Assembly (NCBI GenBank): GCA_007859745.1
Contig: SMLU01000001.1
Span: 930,001-994,000 of the forward strand
Direction of reading: 5' to 3'
DNA length: 64,000 nt
DNA from: Phycisphaerae bacterium RAS1
GTDB taxonomy: Bacteria; Planctomycetota; Phycisphaerae; UBA1845; Fen-1342
The position numbers and the translations under genes are program-made. Positions 11,318 through 34,953 of this stretch are shown one piece after another. How positions within the stretch are numbered: position 1 is the first letter of the stretch; each line of letters opens with the position of its first letter. The notes beneath the pieces were generated by a model, which worked only from the letters and a program-made list of their open reading frames with translations, had not been told where the DNA came from and ran no database searches.

Positions 11318-14300
11318 ATGAACGCGCTCACGTCTTGCGTGTACGGATCGCTGGTCGCGTCGGTCTTCCTCGGCATCGTTCCGGCCACGCAAGCGCAGAC
11401 TCAGTCCGCCCCCGCAACCTCGCAGGCCGCCGAAGAGCGTTTCATGAGCGACGAGGAGTTTCTGAAGATCGGCGTGGACTTTGACCTCGACGCGTACATC
11501 AAGGGTCTCAACCCGCCGACGGTCGAAGAGATCGTCAAGAGCCGCCAGCCGATTCCAACGCTCAAGCACATCCTCGATAGTACGGAGCGATCAGGGCGAC
11601 GGCTCGATCGCGCAGAATCCAAACATTCGGTCGAGGCGACCATTGGCGCATTGTTGGACGAAGGCGAAGGACTCTTGCGGAAAGCCACTGCGGGCAATCA
11701 GGAGGCTGCCAGCAGCGAGCAACTCGAAAACGTCATCGCCAAGGCCGAGCGTGTATTGAACTCGCTCAGCAACGACGGGCAATCACACACTAACCGCGCG
11801 ATCACCCAGGCAAAAGAGCTCCTTGTGACCGCGCACCGCCTACGAGAGCTACCACTTCACCAACGTCGCCTTTGGGGGGAAGCCGACCGCCGCAAAGTTG
11901 ACCTCGATCAGCTCACGTCGCAAGCTGACTTTGCAAGAGCGCTCGGCACTCACCGAAGCCAAGTCACCATCTACGAGACACTATTTGGTAGCGACTATCA
12001 TTATACCGCCGTTGCGCTCAGCAATTGTGGTGATGTGCTGTATCTCATTGGGGACTTAAGCAGCGCAGAGCGGTTGTATCGTACAGCACTTGCGATTGTC
12101 ATGCGCCTGCATGCGACAGATCATCCTCGCGTCGTCGCTAGCCTCAACAACTGTGGAGCGGTACTTCACGCACTCGGCGATTTTGCGAACGCAGACAACT
12201 TGTGCCGGGATGCACTCGCAATGCACTACCGAGTGGGCTCCGCTGTCGCTTCAGACGTGGCGCCTATACTTAACAATGTTGGCACAATGTATGCAGATCG
12301 AGGGGAATTCGCGGAAGCAGAGATGCTTCTCCGCAAAGCGCTTTCGTTGAAGCAGCAGTCGAGCTCGGAAGATAAACTTGACGTTGCCTTGACGATGGGC
12401 AACCTCGCGGGGGTATTGCATCAGCGAGGTGATGCTGATCACGCGGAGACGATGTTCCGTGACTCCCTGGCAATCGCTGAGAAGTTTGGCGGCAGCGATA
12501 GTTTCAACAATGCAAGCAGCCTGAGCGGACTAGCGCAACTTGGGCACGATCGTGGCGATCTAGTGCGGGCCGAAGTACTCGACCGCGAGGCGCTCGCCAT
12601 GTGCCGCCGTCTGGCCCCCGGTGACCATCCAGAAGTCGCAGCTAAAATTGGAAATCTCGCGTCTGTATTAGATGACCGCGGCAACTTCTCGGAGGCCGAG
12701 GCGTTCTGTCGCGAGGCTCTAGCAATGCGTACACGCCTCTATGTGCGCGATCATCCGGAAGTGGCGCTAACTCTGGCGAATTTAGCAATGATATTACTAG
12801 AGGATGGTAACTGTGAGGAGGCCGTGCGGTGCCAGCGAGACGCGCTCTCGATGTGGAAAGGGCTTTTTGCAAGCGACCATCACGACACGGCGAACAGTCT
12901 CGGCAATCTCGCGTCGATTTACCTAGAGTGTGGATCTTTGGAGGACGCCGAGACATGTGCTCGAGACGCTCTGGCAATGAGTCGACGGCTTTATGCCCAA
13001 GAGCATTCGCGCGTGGCACTTAGAATGAACAACTTGGCGGTTGTCCTAAGAGCGCGCGGGAAGCTGGATGAAGCTGAGAGCCTATTTCGCGACGGGTTGG
13101 CGATGTGGCAGCAACTCTTCATCGGAGACCACCCACGGGTTGCCGATGCATTGAACAACATGGCGTCCGTACTGCTGGATCGTGGATTCGCAGACGCGGC
13201 CGAGCCATTTGCGCGCCAGGCATTTGAGATGATCGAGCGGCTTCGACCTCAAATCGTTGGCGGAGAGCGGGAACGTGCCGAGTTTGCACAAAGACTCAAG
13301 TTGCGCGGTCGAGCCCACGCTTACGCCGTGCTGCTCACGCGCATTCATCGGGAGAGTCAAGCGATAGCCGTTTTGGAGCAAGGCCGTGCTCGTGCGGCAC
13401 TGGACGCGTTGGTGCGTTCCGATGCGGATGCGACCACTGGGTCGCGCATGCTAAGTGGCGACGTTCGCACGCGACGCGCGGGACAGGCCAGACAGGTCGA
13501 GCAATCTGCGCGCATCGCATTGAGCGACTCCGAAGCATTGCTGGTCGGTCGGCGAAAAGAGCGGATGGCTTGGGCGAAGTTCACAGACAGGCCCGAACCT
13601 GAGAGAAATCGACGTCTGGCCGCTCTCGACGAGGAGATTGCGGCGCTGTCGGATGCCGTGAAGCAGAAACGTCAAGCACTGACCCGCGCGGGCAGCGAAG
13701 TGCTGGTCGAGCTTCGTGGCTTGTTTCCGATTGCGCAGCCCCGCTCTACGGAAGAGATTTTGAAGGGGTTGGCACCGACGGAAGCTGTCGTCAGCTTCTC
13801 GTGGGGAGACGACAGTGTCCTTGTGGCTGTCGCCGGCGGCGGTCAGACCACCACCGCGATCGTAGCGGAGAACAAGGAGCAAACCAACAAGCTCACGCAG
13901 ATCGCGGCGAATCTTCGAGCCGCGCTCTCGTCACCGGGCACTGCAGGCTCGTCCGACGGGGCCGCCGCGCATGAGTTGCTTTCAGTGCTGTTGCCAGATT
14001 CCATTCGCCGGTATTTGTCGGTCCCCGAGCATGTGCTCATCGTTCCAGATGGTCCGCTCAGCGGAATCCCGTTTGAAGCCCTTGTCGTGCTCGACCCGCA
14101 ATCCCCTCTCGCCGGCAAGCCGATCGTCTACGCGCCGTCGGTCACCGTCTATCTGAACCGCATGGAGCTGCGGCGAGGTGATCAAGCTATCAGCGGGGCC
14201 GTGACAACCGCGTCGCCGCCTGCGGCCGTGGTGCTCGGCGCGCCGGTATTCGACCGCGACTACAAGGACCCCGAGTATCCCACGGACGGTGTGCTGCTTG

Positions 14301-15427
14301 CGAAAGTCGTCGCGAACGGAAACGCCGCCAAAGCCGGATTTCGTCGCGGGGACGTGCTGCTGCGCTACGGCGACCAGAAGCTCGACGACTCGACGCCGAT
14401 TCAGAAGGCAATGGCCGCTGTGACCGACTCGGTGCAGAAAGGCGAACGCCCGGCCGATGCTCCAGTGAAGATCGCGTACTGGCGCAATGGAAGGGAAGCG
14501 CAGGCCGACGTGCCCCTGGGCAAGCTGGGCGTTCAGCCGCAAGAGGGCAATCCCGCCGACGGTCTCCGTTCGATGGCTCTTATGGACACCGTCACCCGTG
14601 GCGGCGGAGAGTTCGAAGCCGGCGTGAGCGCCACCGACCAAGTGCGCCTCTACGGCGGCGTTCTGCCACCGCTGCCCGGCACGCACCGCGAAGCCAAGTC
14701 GATCGCGGCGCTCGTCGGCGCCGCGGGCGGCAAGTCCGCGCTCCTCACGGGTGCCGATGCGTCGATTCCAAAACTCTGGGACGCGGTGACAGCGAACCCG
14801 CCCAAGTACCTGCACCTTGCCACGCACGGCCTGATGGGCAGCGCCGACCGGCCGATGGATGCGAGCCTGGCGCTGACCCAACCAGAGAAGCCGACACCGG
14901 ACGATGTCGGCTTCCTGCGCCTGGACGACCTGATCGGCCGCTGGGGCGGCAAGCTCAAGGGTTGCGAGCTGGTCGTGCTCAGCGCGTGCGACACGCAGCG
15001 CGGCATCCAAAAAGGCGACAGCAGCTTCTCGCTTCCGCTGGGCTTCATGTTCGCCGGCGCCAAGACGGTCGTCGCCAGTCTGTGGAAGGTCGACGACGCG
15101 GCCACGCAGCTTCTGATGACCCGCTTCTACGAGAACCTGCTCGGCAAGTTCGACGCACCAAGGAGCGTTGACGGCGAGGCCTACGCCGCCGGCAAGCCGC
15201 TACCCAAGCTCGCCGCGCTGCGCGAGGCGCAGGCCTGGTTGCGCTCTTTGAGCTGGGAGGACGCTCGCAGGCGAACCGAAATGACCGAGGAGCAGTTCCA
15301 GTCCTACACTGCCTCGCGCGGTATCGGTCAACCCACCACTGCGCCCCGCGGCGAACTCAAGCAAGACGCACCCTTCGCCCACCCCTACTACTGGGCCGCC
15401 TTCATCATGATCGGTGATCCGGAGTAA
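11318..15427 (+). CDS. Exported TPR-PDZ-CHAT protein 1
   Basis: A 1369-residue protein. Residues 1-27 are a signal peptide ending near ATQAQ. A motif shared by all three paralogs follows (AEERFMSDEEFLKIG then FDLDAYI). Ten kinesin-light-chain-type TPRs of 42 residues fill about 222-645, with unit ends such as AEAFCREALAMRTRL. A helical linker leads to the CHAT (caspase HetF associated with TPRs) domain, about 790-1369, with catalytic His1170 in LATHG and Cys1224 in LSACDT. A PDZ-like domain (about 985-1075, GVLLAKVV, AGFRRGDVLLRYG) is inserted within it. CHAT domains are cysteine peptidases; export outside the cytoplasm with a PDZ insert is unusual. AAGGAG precedes the start. Confidence 0.9.
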   Translation: MNALTSCVYGSLVASVFLGIVPATQAQTQSAPATSQAAEERFMSDEEFLKIGVDFDLDAYIKGLNPPTVEEIVKSRQPIPTLKHILDSTERSGRRLDRAESKHSVEATIGALLDEGEGLLRKATAGNQEAASSEQLENVIAKAERVLNSLSNDGQSHTNRAITQAKELLVTAHRLRELPLHQRRLWGEADRRKVDLDQLTSQADFARALGTHRSQVTIYETLFGSDYHYTAVALSNCGDVLYLIGDLSSAERLYRTALAIVMRLHATDHPRVVASLNNCGAVLHALGDFANADNLCRDALAMHYRVGSAVASDVAPILNNVGTMYADRGEFAEAEMLLRKALSLKQQSSSEDKLDVALTMGNLAGVLHQRGDADHAETMFRDSLAIAEKFGGSDSFNNASSLSGLAQLGHDRGDLVRAEVLDREALAMCRRLAPGDHPEVAAKIGNLASVLDDRGNFSEAEAFCREALAMRTRLYVRDHPEVALTLANLAMILLEDGNCEEAVRCQRDALSMWKGLFASDHHDTANSLGNLASIYLECGSLEDAETCARDALAMSRRLYAQEHSRVALRMNNLAVVLRARGKLDEAESLFRDGLAMWQQLFIGDHPRVADALNNMASVLLDRGFADAAEPFARQAFEMIERLRPQIVGGERERAEFAQRLKLRGRAHAYAVLLTRIHRESQAIAVLEQGRARAALDALVRSDADATTGSRMLSGDVRTRRAGQARQVEQSARIALSDSEALLVGRRKERMAWAKFTDRPEPERNRRLAALDEEIAALSDAVKQKRQALTRAGSEVLVELRGLFPIAQPRSTEEILKGLAPTEAVVSFSWGDDSVLVAVAGGGQTTTAIVAENKEQTNKLTQIAANLRAALSSPGTAGSSDGAAAHELLSVLLPDSIRRYLSVPEHVLIVPDGPLSGIPFEALVVLDPQSPLAGKPIVYAPSVTVYLNRMELRRGDQAISGAVTTASPPAAVVLGAPVFDRDYKDPEYPTDGVLLAKVVANGNAAKAGFRRGDVLLRYGDQKLDDSTPIQKAMAAVTDSVQKGERPADAPVKIAYWRNGREAQADVPLGKLGVQPQEGNPADGLRSMALMDTVTRGGGEFEAGVSATDQVRLYGGVLPPLPGTHREAKSIAALVGAAGGKSALLTGADASIPKLWDAVTANPPKYLHLATHGLMGSADRPMDASLALTQPEKPTPDDVGFLRLDDLIGRWGGKLKGCELVVLSACDTQRGIQKGDSSFSLPLGFMFAGAKTVVASLWKVDDAATQLLMTRFYENLLGKFDAPRSVDGEAYAAGKPLPKLAALREAQAWLRSLSWEDARRRTEMTEEQFQSYTASRGIGQPTTAPRGELKQDAPFAHPYYWAAFIMIGDPE

Positions 15428-15438
15428 GCAAAACAGAA

Positions 15439-15471
15439 GCTCCTCGCCGACGCGAAGCATCAGCGAGGAGC
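15439..15471. terminator. Stem-loop between CHAT1 and a convergent gene
   Basis: GCTCCTCGC (15439-15447) pairs perfectly with GCGAGGAGC (15463-15471) around a 15-base loop, 12 bases after the CHAT1 stop. There is no T-run, so it is either a factor-assisted terminator or an mRNA 3' stabiliser serving both converging transcripts. Confidence 0.5.
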
Positions 15472-15503
15472 CTCAGCGGCGATCGGCGGACGCCGATGCC
15501 TTT

Positions 15504-16243: not shown

Positions 16244-16282
16244 CGTTTTTCTCCGTTCGCTGGTTGCGGACCGTGGTCCAGG

Positions 16283-16345
16283 TGCCTGGCTCAACCTCCA
16301 GGTCGGGGCGTACCGCCCGTCACCTAATCCATGCGCCAAATCCAG
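16283..16345 (-). promoter_or_regulatory. Leader repeat B (shared with 20774-20835)
   Basis: About 58 bases here are roughly 85% identical to the leader of the 1452-residue lipoprotein, on the same strand. Shared blocks are TTTGGCGCATGGA, TAGGTG, and a Shine-Dalgarno-like GGAGGT near the end. Both carry a potential GGCGGTACGC stem. Since the two downstream coding sequences are unrelated, conservation of the leader points to common regulation, for example an ECF-type promoter or a structured 5' leader. Confidence 0.55.
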
Positions 16346-16414: not shown

Positions 16415-19400
16415 TCAGTTGACCGTCACAGCCACCGACCACGATGGCCAGCTATCCGTTCGAACCCAAGTCCCGTTCACTGAAGTCTGCGTTTCGAATA
16501 CGCGGTAATATGTGCCCGCCGTGCCCGTGACTGACGTCGGCACCGTCGTGGAATACACGCGCGTACCGCCGCCTGCACTGACAGACTGCGAACCAGTCGT
16601 GCTCTCGAAGTCATAAGGGCTCGATCGGCTGCGATCGATCCGCAGGTTTGCTATTCGAACCGATCGTGCAACGGGACTGTCATTGCGCACGTACACTTCA
16701 ATTCGCAAAGGCGTGTTGCGCGGCACGGATCCACCGGTGACGTTTTGGTTCGTGTCAGTGCGGATGACTCGGAATTCAAAACTGTACGGCTCGTTGCGCC
16801 GCAGCGTGCGGTTGGTGGTCTGGTTGAGCGTGACCGGCACGTTCACGTCGTTGACCCAGTACTCGCCGTTGTAATAGACCTCCAGGTTGTAGCTGCCGAC
16901 GGGAATACCTGACCAGCTCGCCACGCCGCTGCCGTTCGTCGTACGCTCGTCAAGAGGCTGCCAACTCTGACTGTAGCGCACTACCGTCGCGCCGCTGACC
17001 GAGTTTCCGTTCACGTTCTGTACGGTAATGTTCAAATTGCCCGTGTTTGACGTGAGAGTAACAGCGGGATCCCAGCTCCAGCTGTCGGTTTTAACCCAGT
17101 TGCCGTTCACGAGCGTCTGGGTCTCGAACGAACGGTAGTACGGGCCGGTTGCCGATGGCGAGAAGTTCGTGACGTTGAACGTGCGTGTCCCGCCCCCCGA
17201 GCTAATGGTCTGCGATGCGGTCGTCGTTTCGAAATCCCAGGAGCCAGCGCGGTCACGATCCAATCGCAAGTTCCGGATGCGCGCTTCGCGCGCCACCGGG
17301 CTGCCGTTCCGCACCAGCACCTCAAGTCGTAGCGGCGTTCCCTGCGGCACCGAGCCGCCGGTGACGTTCTGGTTCGTGTCGGTGCGAATCACGCGGAACT
17401 CGTAACTGTACGGCTCGTTGCGGCGGAGCGTGCGGTTCGTGGTCTGGTTGAGCACGACCGGTACGTTCACGTCGTTGACCCAATACTCGCCGTTGTAATA
17501 GACCTCCAAGTTGTAGCTGCCTACGGGAATGCCTGACCAGCTCGCCACACCGCTGCTGTTCGTCGTACGCTCGTCGATGTACTGCCAGTTCTGGTTGTAG
17601 CGCACCACCGATGCGCCGCTCGTCGCACTGCCATCCTGGTTCTGAACCGTAACGCTAAGATTTCCCGTATTCGGCGTGATGGTCACGGCGGGGTCCCAGC
17701 CCCAGCTATCGGTCTTGACCCAGTTGCTGTTCACGAACGTCTGCGTCTCGAACGACCGGTAGTACGTCCCGGTTGCGGAAGGTGCGAAGTTTGTGACGCT
17801 GAATATGCGCGTCCCGCCTCCGGAGCTTATGGTTTGCGATGCGGTCGTCGTTTCGAAATCCCAGGAGCTGGTTCGGTCACGGTCCAATCGCAGGTTGTTA
17901 AGACGTGCGTCGCGTGACACGGGGCTCTCGTTACGAACATACGTCTCGACGCGAAGCGGCGTGCCTTGCGGCACGGATTGGCCGGTGACGTTCTGGTTCG
18001 TGTCGGTACGGATGACGCGGAAGTCGTAGCTGTACGGCTCGTTGCGCCGCAACGTGCGGTTGGTAGTCTGGTTGAGCGTGACCGGCACGTTCACGTCGTT
18101 GACCCAATACTCGCCGTTGTAATAGACCTCCAAGTTGTAGCTGCCAACGGCGATCCCATTCCAGCACGCCGTGCCGGCGCTGTTCGTTGTCAGCTGATCG
18201 ATAAGCTGCCAGTTCGTCGTGTAGCGGAGAACTCCCGCCCCGGCCACGTTCGAACCGTTGGCATTCAGGACGGTCACGCAAAGGTTGCCCGTGTTGGGCG
18301 TGATGATCACGGCGGGATCCCAGGCCCAGGCGTCGGTCTTGATCCAGTTGCCGTTCACGAGCGTCTGCGTCTCGAACGAACGGTAGTACGTACCGGTTGA
18401 CGATGGCGAGAAGTTCGTGACGTTGAACGTGCGCGTCCCGCCCCCCGAAGTAATGGTCTGCGATGCAGTCGTCGTTTCGAAATCCCAGGAGCTAGCACGG
18501 TCGCGGTCCAACCGCAGGTTCCGAATGCGCGCCTCGCGAACCACCGGGCTGCTGTTCCGCACCAGCAACTCAAGTCGCAGCGGCGTTCCCTGCGGCACTG
18601 AACCGCCGGTGACGTTCTGGTTCGTGTCGGTGCGAATCACGCGGAACTCGTAACTGTACGGCTCGTTTCGGCGGAGGGTGCGGTTGGTGGTCTGGTTGAG
18701 CGTGACCGGCACGTTCACGTCGTTGACCCAATACTCGCCGTTGTAATAAACCTCCAAGTTGTAGCTGTCGACGGTGATTCCTGACCAGCTCGCCACGCCG
18801 CTGCCGTTCGCCGTACGCTCGTCGATGTACTGCCAGTTCTGGTTGTAGCGCACCACCGATGCGCCGCTCGTCGCACCGCCATCCTGGTTCTGAACCGTCA
18901 CGCTTAGATTGCCAATCTGCGCACCTTGTGGTTGCACAGTAATCGACACCGTAGCGATTGCGCTATATGCGAGCCCGTCGAACGCCCGAAACGTGAATGC
19001 GTCCGTCCCGCTGTATCCCGAATTCGGTACGTACGTGACCGATGGGGGAGTGCCAGTCAGGATCCCGTGGCTTGGCTGGCCAATGACCGCGTACGTCAGC
19101 CGCTGCGGACCGTTGTCCGGATCTGACGCCGTCAGAGTCACGTTCGTAGCCGTCTCAAACGGCACCGACACGGTTTGATCCGTCGCTACCGCCGGTTGAT
19201 TTTCATGCGGACGTTCCTGCACCGTGATGGTGACGGTTGCGGTGTTGCTCCGAAGATTGCCGTCATATGCGTCGAACGTGAAGCTGTCGGATCCACTGAA
19301 TCCAGGATTGGGCAGGTACGACATCAACGGCGGCGATCCAGAGAGCGCTCCGTGGTTCGGCTGAACCCCGATCGAGTAGGTCAAGGCTTGAGGCAGGTTG

Positions 19401-20773
19401 TCGGGGTCGGAAGCCGAAAGCACGATCGGCGTTGTCGTTTCAAAACCAACCGATACGCTCTGGTTCTCGGCCACCGGGCGCTGGTTCGGCGGCGGGGTCA
19501 CCCCCGAGCCACTCCACGTACGATTCACATCGAACACCCTGAGTCTGGGCGATTCGAGCACCCATCGGTCCAGGATGTCTGCTTTGACCTTGGCGTGTCC
19601 CGCGATGCCCGCAACCGCTTCCCACGAATAAGTCCCGCTGGGGGACTGACCCGGACTCACGCATGCCGTACCACTTGCGATCACGCTGACATAGGGCTCC
19701 AAGTCGAAAGAGGGCCCTAGAACGCTGTAGAGCTGCAGTTCAACAACGGGACGGACGAAGAACCGGCTATCGAGAGTCCCGTCGACGCAGAGCGTCGGCC
19801 CACTAGTCGCGAGGTCAAAGTTCTGCTCCGCGATGGGCGACCACTCGGGATCCGCACCTCGTTCGTACCGGGCTCCGCAATGAATCAGCGACTCGGTCGA
19901 AACCCCCACGCGGATTTGTTCCGACGCGCTCGCGTCGATGGAGAACCCCGCAATCAGATTGGCTGAGACTTCGATAACGACCGGATACGGTCCGATCTGA
20001 CCGTAGAGATAGCGTCGAAGCGGCCGGGCAAGCAGCGGAAACTCGCGCTCGGCATGCCCACTCAGACTCGCGACGAGATCACCGGACAGCTCAATACTCG
20101 CGTTCCCTTCGATTGAGGACGCGAACATCACGAGTCGGTATTCTCGAACCTCCATCTCGATGTTCACTCCGAGATCCATCGCGAAACTACCGGCCATCGA
20201 CGCGATGACTCCGTCGCTGTTGTAAAGCTCGTGATCCAAGTTCTCGTCCAGCGCGAACACGTCGTACAGTCGCGCCCGCGCCCGAGTCTTGGCCGCACCC
20301 TCAGGCTCCTTGAATGAGAACTCCCCATTCTCCACGGCCTGGGCAATCGTCGCCGGCGACGTCGCAAGCGTGACGCTTCCATCCGTTTCCACCGTCACCG
20401 AATCTACCTGCCGGAGCGCGCCGCCATTCACCGTGCTGACGATGATGTCGCCGACATTCGGGAGCGGCGCGCCGGGATTGATTACGAGTTCGCTCGGACG
20501 CTGGACCGCGAGGCTACCCGCCCCGCTTTCAGGAAGAACGACGACGTTGGCAGCCGGCGAGGTGTTATCTGCTACGGACGATCCGGGCATCTGCGTCGTT
20601 CCAGGTTGCGTTCCGCCCCCGCCGGAATTGGTTGGAACTGCGACCGGGTTGTCGGTCTGCGCGTCCTGCAGCGGGCATCCGCCGAAGAGTGCAACCGACG
20701 CTGCAACGACTGCTCCGACGATTCCGCGAGCAAGCGGGCGCGCGTGCGATCGGGTTTGCGGTCCAACGTGCAT
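16415..20773 (-). CDS. Large surface lipoprotein with Ig-like domains and four 208-residue repeats
   Basis: A 1452-residue exported protein. The signal peptide ends in VALFGGC, with lipid attachment at Cys33, then a Gly/Thr-rich spacer. Residues about 60-420 are a beta-rich region of unknown family. Two cadherin-like tandem-95 domains follow (about 425-615), with VTLTASDPDNGP and YSGTDAFTFRAFDG. Residues 621-1452 are four near-identical repeats of 208 residues, each with a carboxypeptidase-regulatory-like segment (GVASWSGIPVGSYNLEVYYN) followed by a beta sandwich (EFRVIRTDTNQNVTGGSVP). The start has GGAGGT seven bases upstream. It is probably an adhesin or matrix protein on the cell surface. 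Confidence 0.85.
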   Translation of the reverse strand: MHVGPQTRSHARPLARGIVGAVVAASVALFGGCPLQDAQTDNPVAVPTNSGGGGTQPGTTQMPGSSVADNTSPAANVVVLPESGAGSLAVQRPSELVINPGAPLPNVGDIIVSTVNGGALRQVDSVTVETDGSVTLATSPATIAQAVENGEFSFKEPEGAAKTRARARLYDVFALDENLDHELYNSDGVIASMAGSFAMDLGVNIEMEVREYRLVMFASSIEGNASIELSGDLVASLSGHAEREFPLLARPLRRYLYGQIGPYPVVIEVSANLIAGFSIDASASEQIRVGVSTESLIHCGARYERGADPEWSPIAEQNFDLATSGPTLCVDGTLDSRFFVRPVVELQLYSVLGPSFDLEPYVSVIASGTACVSPGQSPSGTYSWEAVAGIAGHAKVKADILDRWVLESPRLRVFDVNRTWSGSGVTPPPNQRPVAENQSVSVGFETTTPIVLSASDPDNLPQALTYSIGVQPNHGALSGSPPLMSYLPNPGFSGSDSFTFDAYDGNLRSNTATVTITVQERPHENQPAVATDQTVSVPFETATNVTLTASDPDNGPQRLTYAVIGQPSHGILTGTPPSVTYVPNSGYSGTDAFTFRAFDGLAYSAIATVSITVQPQGAQIGNLSVTVQNQDGGATSGASVVRYNQNWQYIDERTANGSGVASWSGITVDSYNLEVYYNGEYWVNDVNVPVTLNQTTNRTLRRNEPYSYEFRVIRTDTNQNVTGGSVPQGTPLRLELLVRNSSPVVREARIRNLRLDRDRASSWDFETTTASQTITSGGGTRTFNVTNFSPSSTGTYYRSFETQTLVNGNWIKTDAWAWDPAVIITPNTGNLCVTVLNANGSNVAGAGVLRYTTNWQLIDQLTTNSAGTACWNGIAVGSYNLEVYYNGEYWVNDVNVPVTLNQTTNRTLRRNEPYSYDFRVIRTDTNQNVTGQSVPQGTPLRVETYVRNESPVSRDARLNNLRLDRDRTSSWDFETTTASQTISSGGGTRIFSVTNFAPSATGTYYRSFETQTFVNSNWVKTDSWGWDPAVTITPNTGNLSVTVQNQDGSATSGASVVRYNQNWQYIDERTTNSSGVASWSGIPVGSYNLEVYYNGEYWVNDVNVPVVLNQTTNRTLRRNEPYSYEFRVIRTDTNQNVTGGSVPQGTPLRLEVLVRNGSPVAREARIRNLRLDRDRAGSWDFETTTASQTISSGGGTRTFNVTNFSPSATGPYYRSFETQTLVNGNWVKTDSWSWDPAVTLTSNTGNLNITVQNVNGNSVSGATVVRYSQSWQPLDERTTNGSGVASWSGIPVGSYNLEVYYNGEYWVNDVNVPVTLNQTTNRTLRRNEPYSFEFRVIRTDTNQNVTGGSVPRNTPLRIEVYVRNDSPVARSVRIANLRIDRSRSSPYDFESTTGSQSVSAGGGTRVYSTTVPTSVTGTAGTYYRVFETQTSVNGTWVRTDSWPSWSVAVTVN
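16418..18913 (-). repeat. Four tandem 624-bp coding repeats
   Basis: The same word (CGTTGTAATA) recurs at 16867, 17491, 18115 and 18739, exactly 624 bases apart each time, giving four in-frame units of 208 codons. Long stretches, such as that encoding NLEVYYNGEYWVNDVNVP, are almost unchanged at the DNA level. The lack of drift indicates recent amplification or continuing homogenisation, and copy number may vary between strains. Confidence 0.9.
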
Positions 20774-20835: not shown

Positions 20836-20912
20836 GGGGCGCATCAATCGCCGATTTGTCGAGGAAGCTGCTCCGAAGAACGAAGGACAGAGCCATCGTG
20901 ACGCCAACCCAG

Positions 20913-20943
20913 ACATAACGTCTTTTGGCGGAAGGCGTTATGT
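20913..20943. promoter_or_regulatory. Inverted repeat upstream of the first ECF sigma gene
   Basis: ACATAACG (20913-20920) and CGTTATGT (20936-20943) are perfect complements with a 15-base spacer, 73 bases before the ECF start. TGACAATTCGAGTATCAT nearby could be a vegetative promoter. The dyad may be an operator for the ECF1 transcript. Confidence 0.45.
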
Positions 20944-21015
20944 GACACCGTCAGCCCCGCCTGACAATTCGAGTATCATGGGCGCGAACACGGCAGGTTT
21001 CGTTGAGGAACGTGT

Positions 21016-21666
21016 ATGGCTGGTGGCGACGGCACGGTCACGCAGCTGCTTAAGGCCGCGGCAACAGGAAACCGCGCAGCCGTCGACCGCCTATGGTCGG
21101 TGGTCTATGACGAACTCTGCCGTATTGCACAGGAGCGGCTCAGAGCTGAACGTCGGCGGTGCACTATTGGAACCAACTCGCTCGTCCATGAGGCCTGCGC
21201 GCGGTTAATAGGCAAAAGGCCGGTTCGTTGGGATGGCCGCGCGCACTTCTTCGGTGCGGCACGAACGGCGATGCGCCGCATCTTGGTTGAGCAAGCACGG
21301 CGGCAAAGGCGGATCAAGCGAGGAGAGGGTGCGCAACCCGTGCCGCTGGTTCATGAGGTCGAGACGTTCGACCACGATCCGACCGAGGTGCTGGCCGTCG
21401 ACGAGGCGCTGGAGCGCCTCGCGACGGCTGCGCCCCGACAGGCGGAGATCGTCGAGTACCGCTACTTCGCAGGGTTAGGCGTGGACGAAACAGCGGAAGT
21501 GATGGGCGTTTCTTCCGGCGTGATTGATAAGGACTGGCGCTTCGCTCGGGCGTGGCTTCATCGGGAGTTGAGCAAGGGAGATACTCGAACCCGCGAGACA
21601 CGTCGAACACCTGTTGGAGCACGACCGGCGGTCCGTAAGGGAGGCCCTCGGAAAAGCCGCGCGTGA
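21016..21666 (+). CDS. ECF sigma factor (PF07638/TIGR02999 type), copy 1
   Basis: A 216-residue sigma-70 family ECF factor. Region 2 begins VTQLLKAAATGNRAAVDRLW and includes HFFGAARTAMRRILVEQARR; region 4 carries the HTH in GLGVDETAEVMGVSSGVIDKDWRFARAWL. This ECF class is expanded in planctomycetes and usually lacks a classical anti-sigma gene, instead lying near Ser/Thr kinases. It stands 168 bases before CHAT2 and should direct transcription of some genes of this locus, possibly through the shared leader motif. GAGG precedes the ATG. The C-terminal tail beyond residue 190 is basic and unstructured. Confidence 0.9.
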   Translation: MAGGDGTVTQLLKAAATGNRAAVDRLWSVVYDELCRIAQERLRAERRRCTIGTNSLVHEACARLIGKRPVRWDGRAHFFGAARTAMRRILVEQARRQRRIKRGEGAQPVPLVHEVETFDHDPTEVLAVDEALERLATAAPRQAEIVEYRYFAGLGVDETAEVMGVSSGVIDKDWRFARAWLHRELSKGDTRTRETRRTPVGARPAVRKGGPRKSRA

Positions 21667-26895: not shown

Positions 26896-27495
26896 ATGTC
26901 AACCGCCGACAACGGCATGATTACGCAGCTCCTTCACGCCGCTGGGCGTGGGGACCGAAGCGCCGCGCAGCGATTGTGGAACGAGGTGTACGAAGAGCTC
27001 CGCCGACTGGCTCGGCGGCAGCTTGCTGGCGAAGGCCCACGCTGCACGATCCAAACGACCTCGCTGGTTCACGAGGCATACATGCGCCTGGTTGGATCCG
27101 AGCAGATCGAATGGGAAAACCATCGCCATTTCTTTGGTGCCGCAGCAAGAGCCATGCGCCAGATTCGCGTTGACGACGCACGTAGAAGAGGGCGAATCAA
27201 GCGCGGCGGAGACCAAGCACCGGCCCCGCTGGTCGATGACGCCCCGATCTTCGACGATGATCCGGCGGAGATTTTGTCCATCGACGAAGCCCTGAAAATC
27301 CTCGAACTGGCCGCGCCGCGACAGGCCGAAATTGTGACGCACCGCTACTACTCCGGGTTGAGCGTGGACGAAACGGCCGCGGCACTCGGCGTTTCGCCGC
27401 GGACCGTTGACACCGAGTGGCGGTTCGCCCGAGCGTGGCTGCACCGGGAGTTGACCAAAGGGGACACGCAGACCCAGCAGGACGCGTCGCCATGA
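26896..27495 (+). CDS. ECF sigma factor (PF07638/TIGR02999 type), copy 2
   Basis: A 199-residue paralog of the first ECF factor. Region 2 spans MITQLLHAAGRGDRSAAQRL to FFGAAARAMRQIRVDDARRR, and the region 4 HTH lies in SVDETAAALGVSPRTVDTEW. The stop TGA overlaps the start of kinase 1 (ATGA), so the sigma factor and kinase are translationally coupled. ECF factors activated by phosphorylation by a partner kinase are known (for example EcfP with PknT in Vibrio), so such control is a reasonable inference here. No anti-sigma gene is present. Confidence 0.92.
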   Translation: MSTADNGMITQLLHAAGRGDRSAAQRLWNEVYEELRRLARRQLAGEGPRCTIQTTSLVHEAYMRLVGSEQIEWENHRHFFGAAARAMRQIRVDDARRRGRIKRGGDQAPAPLVDDAPIFDDDPAEILSIDEALKILELAAPRQAEIVTHRYYSGLSVDETAAALGVSPRTVDTEWRFARAWLHRELTKGDTQTQQDASP

Positions 27496-29213
27496 CAGCC
27501 GACCGGGTTCAGCGAGCTCAGGAGCTATTTCAGCAAGCCCTCTTACGCGCTCCGGCCGAGCGGCAGGCGTTCTTGGAGGGCAGTGGCGCCGATACGGACC
27601 TGCGAGCCGAAGTCGAGTCCCTCCTCGAACACGACGGCATCGCTGGCGAACACTTCATGCGACTCAGATCGGGAGCCGAAGATGATCGCACGCTGACAAA
27701 AAGTGCAAACATGCCGCCCGGCAGCGCCACTGCCGCTGACGCAGATTCCCGGCCCGCCGTACCGGACTACGAAATCGTCACATTCATCGGAAAGGGCGGG
27801 TTTGGTGACGTCTGGCTCGCTCGCCAGTCGCTCACAGACGTGTTCTACGCCGTGAAGACGATTCCGCGCAGCGAGATCGGCGAAATCGAGATGGAGGGTG
27901 TGCGCGAGTGCAAGCAGCGAGCCGGCGGCCATCCGAACCTGCTGACGCTGGAGCACGTCGGACAGACTGACGAGTTCTATTACTACGTGATGGAGCTAGC
28001 GGACGATGCACGGGGATCCGGCGTTCGTACGCCGACCCGATATGAAGCGGCTACGCTGGCAGAACATCTGAAGCGACACGGCGCGCTTCCCGCCGAGGAA
28101 ACCGTGCGGATCATCGGCCAGCTTCTTGACGGGCTCCAGCATCTGCACGATGCGGGGCTGCTCCATCGCGACGTGAAGCCCGCCAACATCTTTCGCAAGG
28201 ACGGCCGTTGGAAACTCGGCGACATGGGGCTGATCACTTCGCATTCCCGCACCGAAATTCGCGCCGGGACGCCGATGTACGCGCCGCCGGAGGGCGTCAG
28301 CGACCGCAGCGGCGAACTGTTCTGCGTAGGCCGACTCTTGCTTGAACTGATCACCGGTGCGGCTCCGGGGGCGAGTGCTACGGCCGATCGCATTCCGCGA
28401 CCGACCGACGCGGCGCTGATTGAACGAATCTGCGGCGTCGCGGCCCGGGCCTGCGACCCAGACGTGGGGAAGCGATTCCAAAACGCGTCCGAAATGCGTG
28501 CCGCGCTGCTTCCGCGCGAACCAGCATTTCGCCGCCGTCGTTTGATCGCATGGACGGGCGTCGTCCTGCTCGCCCTGGTAGGTGCGGCGCTTGCATGGGA
28601 GCTGTACTTCAAGCACCGGCCGACCTCGCTGACGGCCGGGGCCGAACCCACGCTGCAGGTCTACTTCAAGCCGCCCGGCGACGACGCAGGTTATTACCTG
28701 CTCGATGAGCGCCGCGTACCCTTGAAGACGGATACTCGAATCTGGATCCGTGCCGCTCTGCAAACCCCGGGGTTTCCTTACATGTTCCACATCGGTGGGG
28801 GTGAACCGCCGTCATTGCTCTACCCGGACGACGGCAGTCCGGACCGCAAAGTCGGCTCTTTCGACGTCCCGCCGCTCGCAGAGAACCCCGACGATCAGCG
28901 GTGGCTGCCACTGACCCCACCCGAAGGAACCGAGGCGTTCCTGCTGTTGGTCTCCGACCAGCCCGTACCCGATCGAAAGGCGCTGACGGACGCGCTCACA
29001 CATGTGCGCTTTCCGCCGCTCGACGAATCATCGCTTCTTGTCGGCGATGCAGATAACCCCATCCTGCGTTGGAATCCCACGCGCGGGCTGGGTAAGGAAT
29101 CGGTGATCGCACCACGGGGAATCCTCCGCGACCTTCCGCAAACTTGGCGGACGAGATTCCAACACGTCCGCTTGCTCGCCTTCCCCCATGTCGCCGGGGA
29201 AACGCGCCCCTGA
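27492..29213 (+). CDS. Transmembrane Ser/Thr protein kinase 1
   Basis: A 573-residue kinase. The start at 27492 overlaps the ECF2 stop; the ORF extends to 27417 inside ECF2. Residues 1-50 are the short N-terminal module (RAQELFQQALL, EVESLLEHD) shared with kinase 2. The kinase domain has GKGGFG near 100, catalytic HRDVKPAN at 225-232, and DMG in place of DFG. One membrane helix lies at about 350-372. The C-terminal 200 residues would be outside the membrane and resemble DUF4384-type beta domains (FKPPGDDAGYYLLDERRVPL, TPPEGTEAFLLLVSDQPVPD). Next comes CHAT3 after 14 bases. The layout fits a receptor kinase acting on ECF2. Confidence 0.88.
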   Translation: MTADRVQRAQELFQQALLRAPAERQAFLEGSGADTDLRAEVESLLEHDGIAGEHFMRLRSGAEDDRTLTKSANMPPGSATAADADSRPAVPDYEIVTFIGKGGFGDVWLARQSLTDVFYAVKTIPRSEIGEIEMEGVRECKQRAGGHPNLLTLEHVGQTDEFYYYVMELADDARGSGVRTPTRYEAATLAEHLKRHGALPAEETVRIIGQLLDGLQHLHDAGLLHRDVKPANIFRKDGRWKLGDMGLITSHSRTEIRAGTPMYAPPEGVSDRSGELFCVGRLLLELITGAAPGASATADRIPRPTDAALIERICGVAARACDPDVGKRFQNASEMRAALLPREPAFRRRRLIAWTGVVLLALVGAALAWELYFKHRPTSLTAGAEPTLQVYFKPPGDDAGYYLLDERRVPLKTDTRIWIRAALQTPGFPYMFHIGGGEPPSLLYPDDGSPDRKVGSFDVPPLAENPDDQRWLPLTPPEGTEAFLLLVSDQPVPDRKALTDALTHVRFPPLDESSLLVGDADNPILRWNPTRGLGKESVIAPRGILRDLPQTWRTRFQHVRLLAFPHVAGETRP

Positions 29214-29227: not shown

Positions 29228-32200
29228 ATGTCTTCGCGATTCGCCTTCGCGGTCCGCCTCGCAGCAACGCTCGTATCCCTGCAGGACGCCGCTACCGCGC
29301 TTTCTCAGACTCAATTCGCTCCGGCAACCTCGCAGACCGCCGAAGAGCGTTTCATGAGCGACGAGGAGTTTCTTCGCGTCGGACGCGAATTTGATCTCGA
29401 CGCATTCATCAACAGCCTGCGTGCGCCAACGGTTCAGGAAGTTATCGCCGCTCGCCCTCCTATTCCGACGCTTGCTCAGGTCATCCAAATGCTAGGAGCC
29501 AATCAAATCGCGCGCAGCAGTGCTTTGTCTAGCACGGCGGCCACACATATAGTGGAACTAGAACACCAGGTTGCCGACCTTACCAAACACCAGGCGCTAA
29601 CAACCAGCGACGATACATACAGCTTAGCCCTCAGCAAGGCGATACAACTAACCGAGCAAATCTCTCGAATACGCCAAGACGCAGGGCAACCACGCACCTG
29701 GCACGAAGTGGCCACCGTCGATCAGCGCATCACAAGCCTCAAACACGCACAGCGACTCGTCGGTCACGACAGGCGCTTGTGGTGCGCGGCACAAGTGCGG
29801 CTGGCCGAGTTCGAGCAGCTCTACTCAACTGGACAGCTTGAGCGCGCGGAGCAAATCGTGCGAAGCCAGTTAGCAACGTATAGTCAGCTAATCTCCGACG
29901 ACGATTCCGATCTCGCAGAGAGTGCAAACAATCTCGCTGCGGTATTGCGAGCTTACGGCAAACCCGCAGACGCTGAACGGCTCTACCGCTACGCTTTGGC
30001 AATGCATCTTCGGCTCTTTTCAACAGACCACCCTGCAATCGCGACAAGCCTGAACAACCTTGCTGACACACTAGCCTATCGCGGCTCACTAACGGAAGCG
30101 CAGCTGCTCGCAATCGACGCACTCGAGATGTTCCAGAGACTCACGGGCAATCGCTCGCCTGCAGCGGCCACATGTGCGAATAACTTATCTGTCATTGTTC
30201 GAGCTCGTGGTTTACTGCCAGAGGCGGAATCCCTTAACCGCGTTGCTTTGGAAATTCGTCGCCGTACCAATCCGGACGGTACGGAGGTAGCGCAGGCGCT
30301 CAATAACCTTGCGCTTGTCGTTGCAGATCGCGGCGACCTCATCGAAGCGGAAACCCTAGCCCGCGAGGCGTTAACGATCTACCAGCGACTCTTCCGAGGC
30401 GACGCTCCTGACCTTGCAATGACGCTCAACAATCTTGGAACCATCCTCGACAGTCGCGGCGCACTGGTGGAATCAGAATCGCTCAAACGGCAGGCGCTTG
30501 CGATGTACATGCGACTATTTCCTGACGATCACGCGTACGTTGCCGCCGCCCTCAACAATTTAGCCGGCGCACTCAAATCACGCGGTGCAGTTGCGGAAGC
30601 CGAACCCTATTACCGCGATTCGTTGGCGATGCAGCGCCGGTTATTTCCGAACGACCATCCTGACATTGCAGCAAGCGTAAGCAACCTTGCAGGTGCCTTA
30701 TCTGCATCCGGAGACTTTTCACGGGCGGAAGTCTATTATCGAGAAGCATTGTCGATACGGCGTCGCCTTTTCCCAGCCGATCATCTAGATGTGGCGATTA
30801 GCTTAGGAAACTTGGCCGCCAACCTCAGAAACACGGGGGAACTGACTGAAGCGGAACGGTTCGGTCGCGATGCGCTGGCAATGCTCCGACGACTGTTTCC
30901 TGACGACCATCCCGATGTGGCTGTAGCCCTTCACAACCTGGCGTCTATCCTACACGCCCGCGGTTCCCTAGCCGAGGCTGAGCAACTCTCCCGCTGCGCC
31001 CTGACTTTGCGTCAACGCTTATTCCCGGGCGACCATCCGGATAAGACAATCAGCTTGGACCAACTGGCGGCGATCCTTGAGACTCGGGAGGCGCTGGCCG
31101 AGGCCGAGCCGCTGGTTCGGGAGGCGTTCGAAATGAGCGAACGGTTGCGCGCGGGCGTAGTCGGCGGCGAGACGCAGCGAGCTGAGTTTGCCCATGAACT
31201 GCGGCTGGGAGGTAGGGCTCGTGACTACTGCATCCTCCTCGCAAAGCTGGGGCGGCGAACGGAGGTGCTATCGGTCACGGAACGTGGCCGCGGTCGTGCA
31301 GCGCTCGACCTGCTGATGCGGTCTGAGACCGATCTCACCGCGGATGCGCATCGGCAAGATGACGAAGGTCGCCCGGTTCGGCTTAAGTCAGCGGGTCAAA
31401 TCGAACAGGCAGCGCGCGTTGCGCTCAGCGATGCCGAGAGCTTGCTCGCGGGCCGGCGAAAAGAACGCACGGCTTGGGAGAATGTCACAGATAAGCCTGA
31501 TGACGAACGCAATTGGAGAATCGCGTCGCTCGATCAAGAGATCGCAACGTTGGTGGAGGATGTGAAACAGAAGCGGCAAGCTTGTACGCGCGCGAGCAGC
31601 GAGGTACTGGTCGAACTGCGCGGCCTTTTTCCAATTGCGCAACCCCGATCAACCGAAGAGATTCTGAAGGTGTTGGCACCAACGGAAGCGGCGGTCAGTT
31701 TTTCGTGGGGTGCGGAGAGCGTTTTGGTCGCCGTGGCTGGCGGCGGTCAGACGACTGCCGCAATCGTCGCGGAGAGCAAGGATCAAACAGCGAAGCTCAC
31801 GCTGACTGCCACGAATCTGCGAGCCGCACTCGCTTCACCGAGCGCCGCCAGCTCCCTCGACGTGGCCACTGTGCACAAGTTGCTGACCACGCTGTTGCCG
31901 GAGTCCATTCAAACCTACTTAACCGCCGCCAAGCGCGTGCTGATTGTTCCAGATGGCCCCCTGAGCGGAGTTCCATTCGAGGCCCTAGCCGCGCTCGACT
32001 CGCAATCCCCCCTGGCCGGCAAGGCGATCGTGTATGCGCCTTCGGTCACGGTGTATTTGGATCGGATGGAGCTGGGGACCGGCGATCAAGCAACCAGCAG
32101 TCCGCTTACAACCATGTCGCCGCCCGCGGCCGTCGTTCTCGGTGCGCCGGTCTTCGATCGCGACCATCAGGAGCTTGTGTATCCCACGCAGGGTGTCCTG

Positions 32201-33331
32201 CTTGCCAAAGTCGTCGAGAACGGAAACGCCGCAAAAGCCGGACTTCGTCGGGGCGACGTTCTACTGCGATACAGCGACCAAAAGCTGGACGAATCGACGC
32301 CGCTCCAGAAGGCAATGACCGCCGTGACGGCCTCGGTGCAGAAAGGCGAGCGCCCGGCCGATGCCCCCGTGAAAATCGCCTATTGGCGCAAAGGGAAGGA
32401 GATCGAAGCTGAAGTCCCGCTCGGCAAGCTGGGTGTTCAGCCACAAGAAGGTAAGCCCGCTGACGGTCTCCGTTCGATGGCTCTCATCGACGCAGTCACC
32501 CGCGGCGGCGGAGAGTTCGAAGCCGGCGTCAGCGCGACCGATCAGGTGCGCCTCTACGGCGGCGTTCTGCCGCCGCTGCCCGGGACGCAGCGTGAAGCCA
32601 AGTCGATCGCAGCGCTTGTCGGCGCCACCGGCAGCAAGTCGATGCTGCTCACCGGCACGGATGCGTCGATTCCAAAACTCTGGGACGCGGTGACAGCGAG
32701 TCCACCCAAGTACCTGCACCTTGCCACGCACGGCCTGATGGGCAGCGCCGACCGGCCGATGGATGCGAGCCTGGCGCTAACCCAACCAGAGAAGCCGACA
32801 CCGGACGATGTCGGCTTCCTGCGCCTGGACGACCTGATCGGCCGCTGGGGCGGCAAGCTCAAAGGCTGCGAGCTGGTCGTGCTCAGCGCGTGCGACACGC
32901 AGCGCGGCATTCAGAAGGGCGACAGCAGCTTCTCTTTGCCGTTGGGCTTCTTCTTCGCCGGAGCGAAGACCGTCGTCGCCAGTCTGTGGAAGGTCGATGA
33001 CACGGCCGCGCAGCTGCTGATGACCCGATTCTATGAGAATCTGCTCGGCAAGTTCGACGCCCTACGTAGCGTCGATGGTGAGAGTTACGCCGCCGGCAAA
33101 CCGCTGCCGAAGCTCGCAGCCCTGCGCGAAGCACAAGCCTGGCTGAGATCGTTAAGCTGCGAAGAAGCCCGCAAGCGAACCGAAATGACCGAGGAGCAGT
33201 TCCAGTTGTACGCCGCCTCGCGCGGCATCGGCCAGCCCACCACCGCACCCCGCCGTGAGCTGAAACAAGACGCGCCCTTCGCTCACCCCTACTACTGGGC
33301 CGCGTTCATCATGATCGGAGATCCGGGTTAG
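29228..33331 (+). CDS. Exported TPR-PDZ-CHAT protein 3
   Basis: A 1367-residue paralog. The ATG at 29228 has GGAG upstream and gives a signal peptide of about 27 residues aligned with the other two; the in-frame start at 29144 would lie inside kinase 1. The shared N-terminal motif AEERFMSDEEFLRVGREF and DLDAFI is present, followed by ten TPRs (about 215-635). The CHAT domain has His1168 and Cys1222, again 54 apart, with the PDZ-like insert (GVLLAKVVENGNAAKAGLRRGDVLLRY). It is the third gene of ECF2-kinase1-CHAT3-kinase2, all within 21 bases of each other, so it is co-expressed with its presumed regulators. Confidence 0.9.
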   Translation: MSSRFAFAVRLAATLVSLQDAATALSQTQFAPATSQTAEERFMSDEEFLRVGREFDLDAFINSLRAPTVQEVIAARPPIPTLAQVIQMLGANQIARSSALSSTAATHIVELEHQVADLTKHQALTTSDDTYSLALSKAIQLTEQISRIRQDAGQPRTWHEVATVDQRITSLKHAQRLVGHDRRLWCAAQVRLAEFEQLYSTGQLERAEQIVRSQLATYSQLISDDDSDLAESANNLAAVLRAYGKPADAERLYRYALAMHLRLFSTDHPAIATSLNNLADTLAYRGSLTEAQLLAIDALEMFQRLTGNRSPAAATCANNLSVIVRARGLLPEAESLNRVALEIRRRTNPDGTEVAQALNNLALVVADRGDLIEAETLAREALTIYQRLFRGDAPDLAMTLNNLGTILDSRGALVESESLKRQALAMYMRLFPDDHAYVAAALNNLAGALKSRGAVAEAEPYYRDSLAMQRRLFPNDHPDIAASVSNLAGALSASGDFSRAEVYYREALSIRRRLFPADHLDVAISLGNLAANLRNTGELTEAERFGRDALAMLRRLFPDDHPDVAVALHNLASILHARGSLAEAEQLSRCALTLRQRLFPGDHPDKTISLDQLAAILETREALAEAEPLVREAFEMSERLRAGVVGGETQRAEFAHELRLGGRARDYCILLAKLGRRTEVLSVTERGRGRAALDLLMRSETDLTADAHRQDDEGRPVRLKSAGQIEQAARVALSDAESLLAGRRKERTAWENVTDKPDDERNWRIASLDQEIATLVEDVKQKRQACTRASSEVLVELRGLFPIAQPRSTEEILKVLAPTEAAVSFSWGAESVLVAVAGGGQTTAAIVAESKDQTAKLTLTATNLRAALASPSAASSLDVATVHKLLTTLLPESIQTYLTAAKRVLIVPDGPLSGVPFEALAALDSQSPLAGKAIVYAPSVTVYLDRMELGTGDQATSSPLTTMSPPAAVVLGAPVFDRDHQELVYPTQGVLLAKVVENGNAAKAGLRRGDVLLRYSDQKLDESTPLQKAMTAVTASVQKGERPADAPVKIAYWRKGKEIEAEVPLGKLGVQPQEGKPADGLRSMALIDAVTRGGGEFEAGVSATDQVRLYGGVLPPLPGTQREAKSIAALVGATGSKSMLLTGTDASIPKLWDAVTASPPKYLHLATHGLMGSADRPMDASLALTQPEKPTPDDVGFLRLDDLIGRWGGKLKGCELVVLSACDTQRGIQKGDSSFSLPLGFFFAGAKTVVASLWKVDDTAAQLLMTRFYENLLGKFDALRSVDGESYAAGKPLPKLAALREAQAWLRSLSCEEARKRTEMTEEQFQLYAASRGIGQPTTAPRRELKQDAPFAHPYYWAAFIMIGDPG

Positions 33332-33351
33332 AGGGTTAGAGGATTCACGCG

Positions 33352-34953
33352 ATGAACGACCGGATGAGCAAGGCGGTCGATCTTTTCGCACAGGCGTTAC
33401 AGTGCCCGCCAAAAGAACGTTCGGAGTTCCTGCTCGAAGCCTGCGCCGGCGATTCCATTCTCCTCAAGGAAGTCGAATCTCTCCTGCGCCACGACCACGA
33501 GGCGCACACGCGCTTTCTGAATCCCGCGTCATCGCCGCTCGAACGCGGCGATGATCCGACGCTCAGTTCCCCAGAGCGGCCCAATTCTCCCCCGGCAGGG
33601 AACGAAACGGTCGACGCTTCCAGCAGTCCCGTGATTGCCCGCCCAATCAGCGCACTGCCAATTGATGGCTACGACGATTTGCGCGAGCTCGGACGCGGTG
33701 GACAAGGTGTCGTGTACGCAGCAATGCAGCGTGGCACGAAGCGCACCGTTGCCATCAAAGTTTTGCTTAACGGGCAATACGCCAGCCCGGCCGACCGGAA
33801 GCGATTCCAGCGTGAGATCGAGGTCGTGGCTCACCTTAAGCACCCGGGTATCGCCACCATTTTTCATTCTGGCGAGACGAGCGACGCACGGCCCTACTAC
33901 GTCATGGACTTTGTTGACGGCGCGCCACTGAATCGGCACGTGCGAAACAACAACCTCCTGATAGCCGATGCTCTCGGGCTCTTCGCGCAGGTCTGCGTGC
34001 CCGTTCAATATGCACATGAACACGGCATCGTGCACCGCGACTTGAAACCTAGCAACATCCTCGTTGACGAGAAGGGCAAACCGAAGATCATGGATTTTGG
34101 GCTGGCGAAGCCCCTTGCCAACCCGCCAACAACGACCATCTCTCAGCCGCATCAGATTGTGGGAACGCTTCCCTACATGTCGCCGGAGCAGGCCCGCGGC
34201 GATGCTGACAAGATCGACATTCGGACGGATGTGTACGCTCTGGGTGTGGTCCTCTACGAGCTTCTAACCGGCCGATACCCCTATCCCATTTCCGGCAATA
34301 CGACGGACGTGCTCAGGCATATCATCGACACGCCGCCCACTCCGCCGAGTCGCGCATGGTCGGCGGATTGCGGCGTCGCAGAATGCACTTCTCGCGCACA
34401 TTCCTCGACACGGTCCCCAATCGATACCCGACTCGAAACGATCGTGTTGCGAGCGCTGAGCAAGGAACGCGAGAGGCGCTACCAGTCGGTGTCCGCTCTG
34501 CGTAACGACGTCCTGGCATATCTGGCTGACGAGCCGATTGCGGCGCGACCGGACAGCTGGCGGTATCGACTTCGGCGATGGGCACGCCGTCACACGATCT
34601 TCATCATAGCCTCCGCGTTGTACTTCGCCGCTTACGCAGCCGGTTCCGCCGATCTTGGTTGGGTCGCGCCGATTGTCGTGGCGACATCGCTCTGGGCGGC
34701 ATGGGATTCGTCAAGAATCGAGCTGACCAAGTACCGATCGAGCCTGCGCTATTCGCCAGTCAAGCTGTTTTTCGCGATGCTCGGGCTTTGGATCGTCGGC
34801 TTCCCATGGTACCTGGTTTTGCGCCGACGCATCCTTGCCGGCACTATGCCCCGCGCAATTGACGACGAAAAGCCCCGCACCAACGTACTTGTGTGTACCA
34901 GCCTCTTGCTTTACGTCGGCGTGACGATCATCGTGGTTTTCGCGATAGCGTGA
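33352..34953 (+). CDS. Membrane Ser/Thr protein kinase 2 (PknB-like)
   Basis: A 533-residue kinase, 20 bases after CHAT3. The N-terminal module (AVDLFAQALQCPPKERSEFL, EVESLLRHDHEA) is shared with kinase 1. The Hanks domain is complete: GRGGQG at 114, Lys136 in VAIKVLL, HRDLKPSN with Asp230, DFG at 248, and the GTLPYMSPEQARG activation segment. The C-terminal part has membrane segments near 415-445, 470-490 and 515-533 with no large outer domain, so it lacks the sensor seen in kinase 1. It is the last gene of the operon and could phosphorylate ECF2, kinase 1 or another host target. Confidence 0.92.
   Translation: MNDRMSKAVDLFAQALQCPPKERSEFLLEACAGDSILLKEVESLLRHDHEAHTRFLNPASSPLERGDDPTLSSPERPNSPPAGNETVDASSSPVIARPISALPIDGYDDLRELGRGGQGVVYAAMQRGTKRTVAIKVLLNGQYASPADRKRFQREIEVVAHLKHPGIATIFHSGETSDARPYYVMDFVDGAPLNRHVRNNNLLIADALGLFAQVCVPVQYAHEHGIVHRDLKPSNILVDEKGKPKIMDFGLAKPLANPPTTTISQPHQIVGTLPYMSPEQARGDADKIDIRTDVYALGVVLYELLTGRYPYPISGNTTDVLRHIIDTPPTPPSRAWSADCGVAECTSRAHSSTRSPIDTRLETIVLRALSKERERRYQSVSALRNDVLAYLADEPIAARPDSWRYRLRRWARRHTIFIIASALYFAAYAAGSADLGWVAPIVVATSLWAAWDSSRIELTKYRSSLRYSPVKLFFAMLGLWIVGFPWYLVLRRRILAGTMPRAIDDEKPRTNVLVCTSLLLYVGVTIIVVFAIA

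Follow-up and report, generated by a model that had tools for sequence, protein, structure and literature searches.

Positions 11318-34953 of a 64,000-nucleotide stretch of Phycisphaerae bacterium RAS1 (contig SMLU01000001.1; the whole stretch is called the window) encode three paralogous TPR-PDZ-CHAT proteins (CHAT1, CHAT2 and CHAT3), two extracytoplasmic function (ECF) sigma factors (ECF1 and ECF2) and two Ser/Thr kinases (K1 and K2). Judged by gene order in relatives, the linkage of exported TPR-CHAT proteins with ECF genes is conserved, and the exported TPR-CHAT protein probably acts on the input side, as protease or sensor, of a DUF4384 transducer that controls the ECF. For the locus itself, we give an even chance to a transmembrane signalling module in which an exported TPR-PDZ-CHAT protein partners K1, with its DUF4384-like domain outside and its kinase domain inside, and K1 controls ECF2. 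The parts, their order, their linkage in relatives and the fusion of the same parts are read from the sequences; the direction of signalling is less settled than the linkage, and output and non-catalytic co-receptor roles are possible.

Linkage of TPR-CHAT and ECF genes in relatives

A search of 114 genomes of the same order gave 73 CHAT matches, and CHAT genes were fetched with their flanks. Linkage was counted among close relatives of the window-type exported TPR-CHAT proteins whose 3′ flank spans 2 kb or more, and neighbours were screened with iterated ECF queries. Of 14 such loci, 11 have an ECF gene no further than 1.3 kb from the CHAT 3′ end; from the ECF density away from CHAT genes on the same contigs, about 0.56 would be expected (binomial P = 1e-13, calculated on the genomes as sampled and ignoring shared ancestry; the loci are from many genera and their ECFs from several different families). 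Within the RAS1 genome, two of the nine strong PF07638 ECFs (P ~7e-4) and three of the four CHAT genes lie in the 23.6 kb of the locus.

Planctomycete ECF and kinase genes are many and might land beside CHAT genes at random; the RAS1 genome has 25 PF07638 matches and about 45-50 kinase genes (56 kinase match stretches), many of them side by side. Such a chance neighbourhood is contradicted by the counts in relatives, by recurrence outside the order and by gene fusions (below), and is very improbable.

The gene between CHAT and ECF usually encodes a single-pass membrane protein with a DUF4384-like domain on a kinase or anti-sigma-like N-terminus. In this intervening protein, zf-HC2 was above the Pfam cut-off at loci L048 and L051 and an HxxxCxxC motif was present at L039 and L047, while at L050 a zinc-finger motif stands at the start of a K1-like kinase adjoining CHAT. 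In relatives the CHAT gene is mostly convergent with the ECF operon and not part of it; at L102, genes for an ECF, a small membrane protein and an exported TPR-CHAT protein follow one another in one direction. The first-pass annotation of the window had proposed an envelope signalling system and would have given it up had related genomes lacked ECF and kinase neighbours. The linkage is kept in operons, convergent pairs and fusions, and this gene context supports the proposal well.

Fusions and recurrence beyond the order

At L121, from another genus of the order, kinase, transmembrane (TM) segment, DUF4384, TPR, PDZ and CHAT are joined in one protein of 1729 aa, encoded directly behind a PF07638 ECF 40% identical to ECF2. 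This is the ECF2-K1-CHAT3 order of the window with kinase and CHAT in one chain. The L042 protein has a TM segment, a DUF4384-like ectodomain (44% identity to the K1 ectodomain over 182 aa) and TPR-CHAT, and no kinase. CHAT is placed on the input side because two different fusions link this type of ectodomain to TPR-CHAT, and domains joined in one protein usually cooperate.

Outside the order, an ECF-kinase(DUF4384)-CHAT arrangement with overlapping genes was found at L152, from another family of the phylum, and the kinase-CHAT pair recurs at L156 and L157, from other families of the phylum. In the phylum sample, a CHAT gene was present in the fetched stretch of 8 of about 40 DUF4384 loci, where fewer than one would be expected even at ten times the CHAT density of the order.

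CHAT proteins

CHAT1-3 matched the CHAT domain (PF12770) with E values of 9e-52 to 6e-53 (177-181 bits, against a Pfam cut-off of 24) and each contained 10-11 TPR_10 stretches (Pfam), with a PDZ-like insert between the two halves of the CHAT domain (E ~1e-4, under the Pfam cut-off). Their C-terminal halves are 75-80% identical, and the three are therefore local duplicates. The catalytic His/Cys pair is intact in all three (Table 1), with Cys1222 in CHAT3 as first annotated, and both residues are invariant in a 16-sequence alignment of stand-alone relatives; CHAT1-3 are predicted caspase-like peptidases. One scan of genome contigs for relatives returned two weak ones only, and structure prediction for the C-terminal half of CHAT3 from four sequences gave no confident model (predicted local distance difference test score, pLDDT, 34).

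The proteins had been annotated as exported and as sharing an N-terminal SDEEF motif. CHAT1 has a convincing signal peptide, those of CHAT2 and CHAT3 are weaker (judged without SignalP), and relatives agree with export through hydrophobic N-termini, a lipobox-like LAAGC at L157 and a TM-then-CHAT order in both fusions. CHAT1-3 thus appear to be exported, clearly for CHAT1 and less so for CHAT2 and CHAT3, partly by analogy with these relatives. SDEEF is present in all three paralogs but was found only there; the common N-terminal stretch of relatives after the signal peptide is D.DA.I..L.PPT...II.S..PIPT-like.

ECF sigma factors

ECF1 and ECF2 both match PF07638 (4e-55) and TIGR02999. ECF-kinase adjacency alone is ordinary in this genome, and kinase-adjacent ECF groups (ECF59, ECF61, ECF62 and ECF217) have been predicted in planctomycetes (PMC8999054); an ECF with a kinase is therefore no finding by itself. 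In EcfP, the sigma-2.2 motif is STTA and its second Thr is phosphorylated by PknT (PMC8999054). ECF2 has a kinase gene adjoining and has QTTS (53-56) in place of the acidic DAED motif of sigma-2.2, a phosphorylatable replacement whose Thr55 aligns with the EcfP phosphosite, which makes it plausible that a kinase activates ECF2, as the first-pass annotation had it.

Thr also occupies the phosphosite position in ECFs of the kinase loci L046 (QPTA), L121 (QATA) and L148 (QPTA). ECFs adjoining anti-sigma-like membrane proteins mostly have acidic residues in sigma-2.2, and ECFs beside kinases (the window, L046 and L121) have T or N where these have an acidic residue.

Kinases and the DUF4384-like ectodomain

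K1 and K2 match PF00069. In K1 the kinase domain is followed by one TM segment and an ectodomain of about 190 aa. Comparison by hhalign of ectodomains from the small membrane proteins with K1-type ectodomains (11 versus 10 sequences) gave a probability of 93% and E 2.7e-7, and a profile of the small membrane proteins found DUF4384 kinases as its first outside matches among 3232 open reading frames (ORFs). The two kinds of ectodomain are probably homologous, remotely. Single-sequence prediction gave no confident structure for the K1 ectodomain (pLDDT 38).

As a separate observation, similar DUF4384-like ectodomains end proteins of about 680 aa with no kinase match at L076:8425-10476, L078:2607-4634 and L079:9349-11400. 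The L076 protein matches the BrxC/BrxD ATPase (E 2e-107), which links this kind of ectodomain to BREX-type ATPases as well.

Signalling model and alternatives

In the proposed mechanism, the TPR and PDZ domains would recognise an envelope cue or a misfolded protein, and CHAT would then cleave or conformationally trigger the DUF4384 ectodomain of K1. K1 would in turn phosphorylate ECF2 at the predicted Thr55, and the phosphate would supply the negative charge absent from ECF2 sigma-2.2. In relatives with an anti-sigma-like transducer, such an input would instead set free an ECF in which the acidic residues are retained. Because ECFs of kinase loci have Thr and those next to anti-sigma-like proteins mostly have acidic residues, we infer that a single outer sensor is served by two mechanisms inside the cell, ECF phosphorylation or anti-sigma release. 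With confidence somewhat short of even, this may extend to a principle widespread among planctomycetes, in which an exported caspase-like TPR-CHAT protease serves as the input of ECF control through a common DUF4384 ectodomain that has become attached variously to kinases, to zinc-finger anti-sigma factors or to the protease, the inner halves being interchangeable.

Several observations weigh against this mechanism. CHAT1 has no local ECF, and L038 has none nearby despite long flanks. The K1 match to DUF4384 (PF14326) is below the Pfam cut-off (E 0.015, 15.8 bits versus 27); the domain is called DUF4384-like only, because K1 falls under the cut-off while equivalent kinases of K1-like layout at L069, L071 and L075 pass it. 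An earlier ectodomain comparison with 7 versus 7 sequences gave a probability of 6% and E 0.006, for which reason the homology is put no higher than probable and remote. ECF1 (GTNS) has Asn, not Thr, at the phosphosite and agrees only in part with a kinase-controlled ECF, and at L070 and L077 a kinase is paired with an ECF that has the acidic motif (at L070, a small zinc-finger ORF lies between the kinase and ECF genes). The L121 CHAT domain keeps its Cys but no longer has the catalytic His (HVASPV in place of HLATHG), and cleavage is therefore not needed in every version. Both the phosphorylation of ECF2 and the cleavage of K1 are steps that we infer from sequence.

The first-pass annotation had the CHAT proteins acting on surface or periplasmic targets. 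CHAT would then be the output: ECF and kinases would be the sensors of envelope stress and would turn on exported CHAT peptidases that process such targets. This is possible, and agrees with CHAT3 lying in the same operon as ECF2 and K1, with a catalytic pair intact in most relatives, and with three paralogs arisen by local duplication, which suggest dosage or different targets. However, the L121 and L042 fusions place TPR-CHAT in the receptor and not downstream of it, the fusion to a receptor kinase with loss of His fits an input better, CHAT genes in most relatives are convergent with the ECF operon, and no promoter motif common to the regions upstream of CHAT1, ECF1, CHAT2 and ECF2 was found, only chance-like 8-10-mers. 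An output role is unlikely, if a serious candidate.

TPR-PDZ-CHAT could also serve the DUF4384 transducer as a co-receptor or scaffold that binds peptides, is non-catalytic and acts with no cleavage, as the kinase-fused L121 protein with its missing His and the nature of TPR and PDZ as binding modules might suggest; a pure scaffold would not be expected to retain both His and Cys, as the aligned stand-alone relatives do, and we consider this reading improbable.

If the signalling module is true, caspase-like CHAT proteases work outside the cytoplasm as part of an ECF receptor, DUF4384 (a domain of unknown function) gains a function, and the way in which some planctomycete ECF-kinase pairs may receive signals is explained. 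The Csx29-Csx30-sigma system would then join a wider group of CHAT-ECF partnerships with no need of CRISPR.

Relation to known systems

DegS is the serine protease of the DegS/RseA/sigma-E envelope stress pathway. Like the locus, that pathway combines an envelope protease with PDZ, a single-pass transducer and an ECF output, a parallel also drawn in PMC10028731; unlike it, the locus has a transducer of the kinase type, and its peptidase is a caspase-like cysteine enzyme with TPRs. The substrate of Csx29, a TPR-CHAT protease, is Csx30, which inhibits an ECF (PMC10028731). The type III-E Csx29-Csx30-CASP-sigma system (PMC10028731) thus resembles the locus in tying a TPR-CHAT protease to an ECF, there both genetically and in function through an intermediate inhibitor protein, and differs in being cytoplasmic, RNA-activated through Cas7-11 and free of kinase, membrane DUF4384 transducer and PDZ, where CHAT here is predicted to be exported. 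The locus shares with type III-E CASP the link of TPR-CHAT to ECF and does not share its location with Cas7-11 and CRISPR; the window genes that were scanned had no Cas-like family in their Pfam and NCBIfam matches (no dedicated CRISPR-array search was made). The module is proposed to work by analogy with DegS/RseA or Csx29/Csx30, with the kinase replacing or adjoining the anti-sigma factor.

CHAT proteases act in CRISPR defence (Csx29, SAVED-CHAT; PMC10028731, PMC11229360), and the locus might accordingly serve in phage defence or in self/non-self conflict, the kinase and CHAT being the death effectors; the Fic protein and the ParA-like and TraG/TrwB-like genes of the neighbouring region speak for this. 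But PADLOC gave generic kinase and TPR matches only, module-bearing relatives lie in varied contexts, and an exported peptidase is unable to act on cytoplasmic phage parts, which leaves a defence role distinctly improbable.

EcfP-PknT and EcfK-PknS (ECF43; PMC8999054) share with the locus an ECF adjoining a kinase; in ECF2, too, DAED is absent and the corresponding position is a Thr. These pairs and the ECF59, ECF61, ECF62 and ECF217 systems as described in PMC8999054 have no exported TPR-CHAT partner, and the ECFs of the locus belong to PF07638/TIGR02999. For ECF54, CHAT and subtilase genes are found in context and proteolytic control has been proposed (PMC8999054); the likeness is in gene context, CHAT genes being conserved by the ECF gene, and ECF1 and ECF2 are placed only in PF07638/TIGR02999. 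The ECF54 model member is actinobacterial (Geodermatophilus), and the review names no DUF4384 transmembrane kinase or anti-sigma factor (PMC8999054). No account of CHAT with ECF in planctomycetes, and no description of the full combination, was found in the literature searched. The first-pass view that no described system has this composition therefore stands for the combination but not for its pieces, since ECF-kinase pairs, CHAT near ECF54 and Csx29-Csx30-sigma have been described; it is the combination that is new, because ECF-kinase pairing is ordinary here and CHAT near ECF54 was noted before (PMC8999054).

Locus layout and neighbouring features

ECF2 and K1 overlap by 4 bp (ATGA), K1 and CHAT3 are 14 bp apart, and CHAT3 and K2 20 bp. 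These measurements uphold the annotated contiguity of the four genes, which by their spacing form one tight operon; CHAT2 and ECF2 are separated by 708 bp. All seven annotated genes were found in their places, but an unrelated opposite-strand gene cuts CHAT1 off from ECF1 and the rest of the cluster, and no ECF or kinase gene adjoins CHAT1.

Table 1. Features of the locus (window positions)
Feature	Positions	Strand	Description
CHAT1	11318-15427	+	1369 aa; signal peptide, ~10 TPRs, CHAT with PDZ insert (H1170/C1224); lone copy
Big_9/carboxypeptidase-regulatory repeat gene	16415-20773	-	1452 aa, secreted repeat protein; between CHAT1 and ECF1, divergent from ECF1
ECF1	21016-21666	+	PF07638/TIGR02999; sigma-2.2 motif GTNS instead of DAED
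CHAT2	21835-26187	+	1450 aa from ATG; N-terminal signal-like segment, ~11 TPRs, CHAT with PDZ insert (H1251/C1305)
ECF2	26896-27495	+	PF07638/TIGR02999; DAED of sigma-2.2 replaced by Q53-T54-T55-S56; predicted phosphosite Thr55
K1	27492-29213	+	N-terminal helical region, Ser/Thr kinase (HRD, DMG), one TM (residues 349-374), DUF4384-like ectodomain
DUF4384-like extracytoplasmic domain of K1	28617-29210	+	probably homologous to ectodomains of membrane proteins adjoining TPR-CHAT genes elsewhere; fused to TPR-CHAT in L042 and L121
CHAT3	29228-33331	+	1367 aa from ATG; signal-like segment, ~10 TPRs, CHAT with PDZ insert (H1168/C1222)
K2	33352-34953	+	canonical Ser/Thr kinase (HRD/DFG), C-terminal membrane segments

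An Rfam search of positions 8000-38000 gave no match, and a tRNA-Ala called by ARAGORN at 25402-25501, inside the CHAT2 reading frame, was taken as probably false. The promoter region shared by the divergent repeat-protein and ECF1 genes contains an inverted repeat, ACATAACG...CGTTATGT, at about 20900-20950, a possible operator. Downstream of the locus, positions 35419-61784 encode a Fic protein, a ParA-like ATPase, a TrwB/TraG-like coupling protein and an AAA_34 helicase-like gene, possibly an integrated conjugative element adjoining the locus.

A second cassette in the RAS1 genome (L052:6267-10470; G000:C4:262266-266469) consists of an ECF, an anti-sigma-like protein of about 200 aa, in which zf-HC2 reached only E 0.029, and a cytoplasmic TPR-CHAT protein of about 950 aa whose gene overlaps the anti-sigma-like gene by 4 bp. 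Cassettes of this type were found in about 10 loci of the order (L084, L085, L087, L089, L090, L092, L099, L101 and L104) and resemble CASP-sigma/Csx30/Csx29 without CRISPR.

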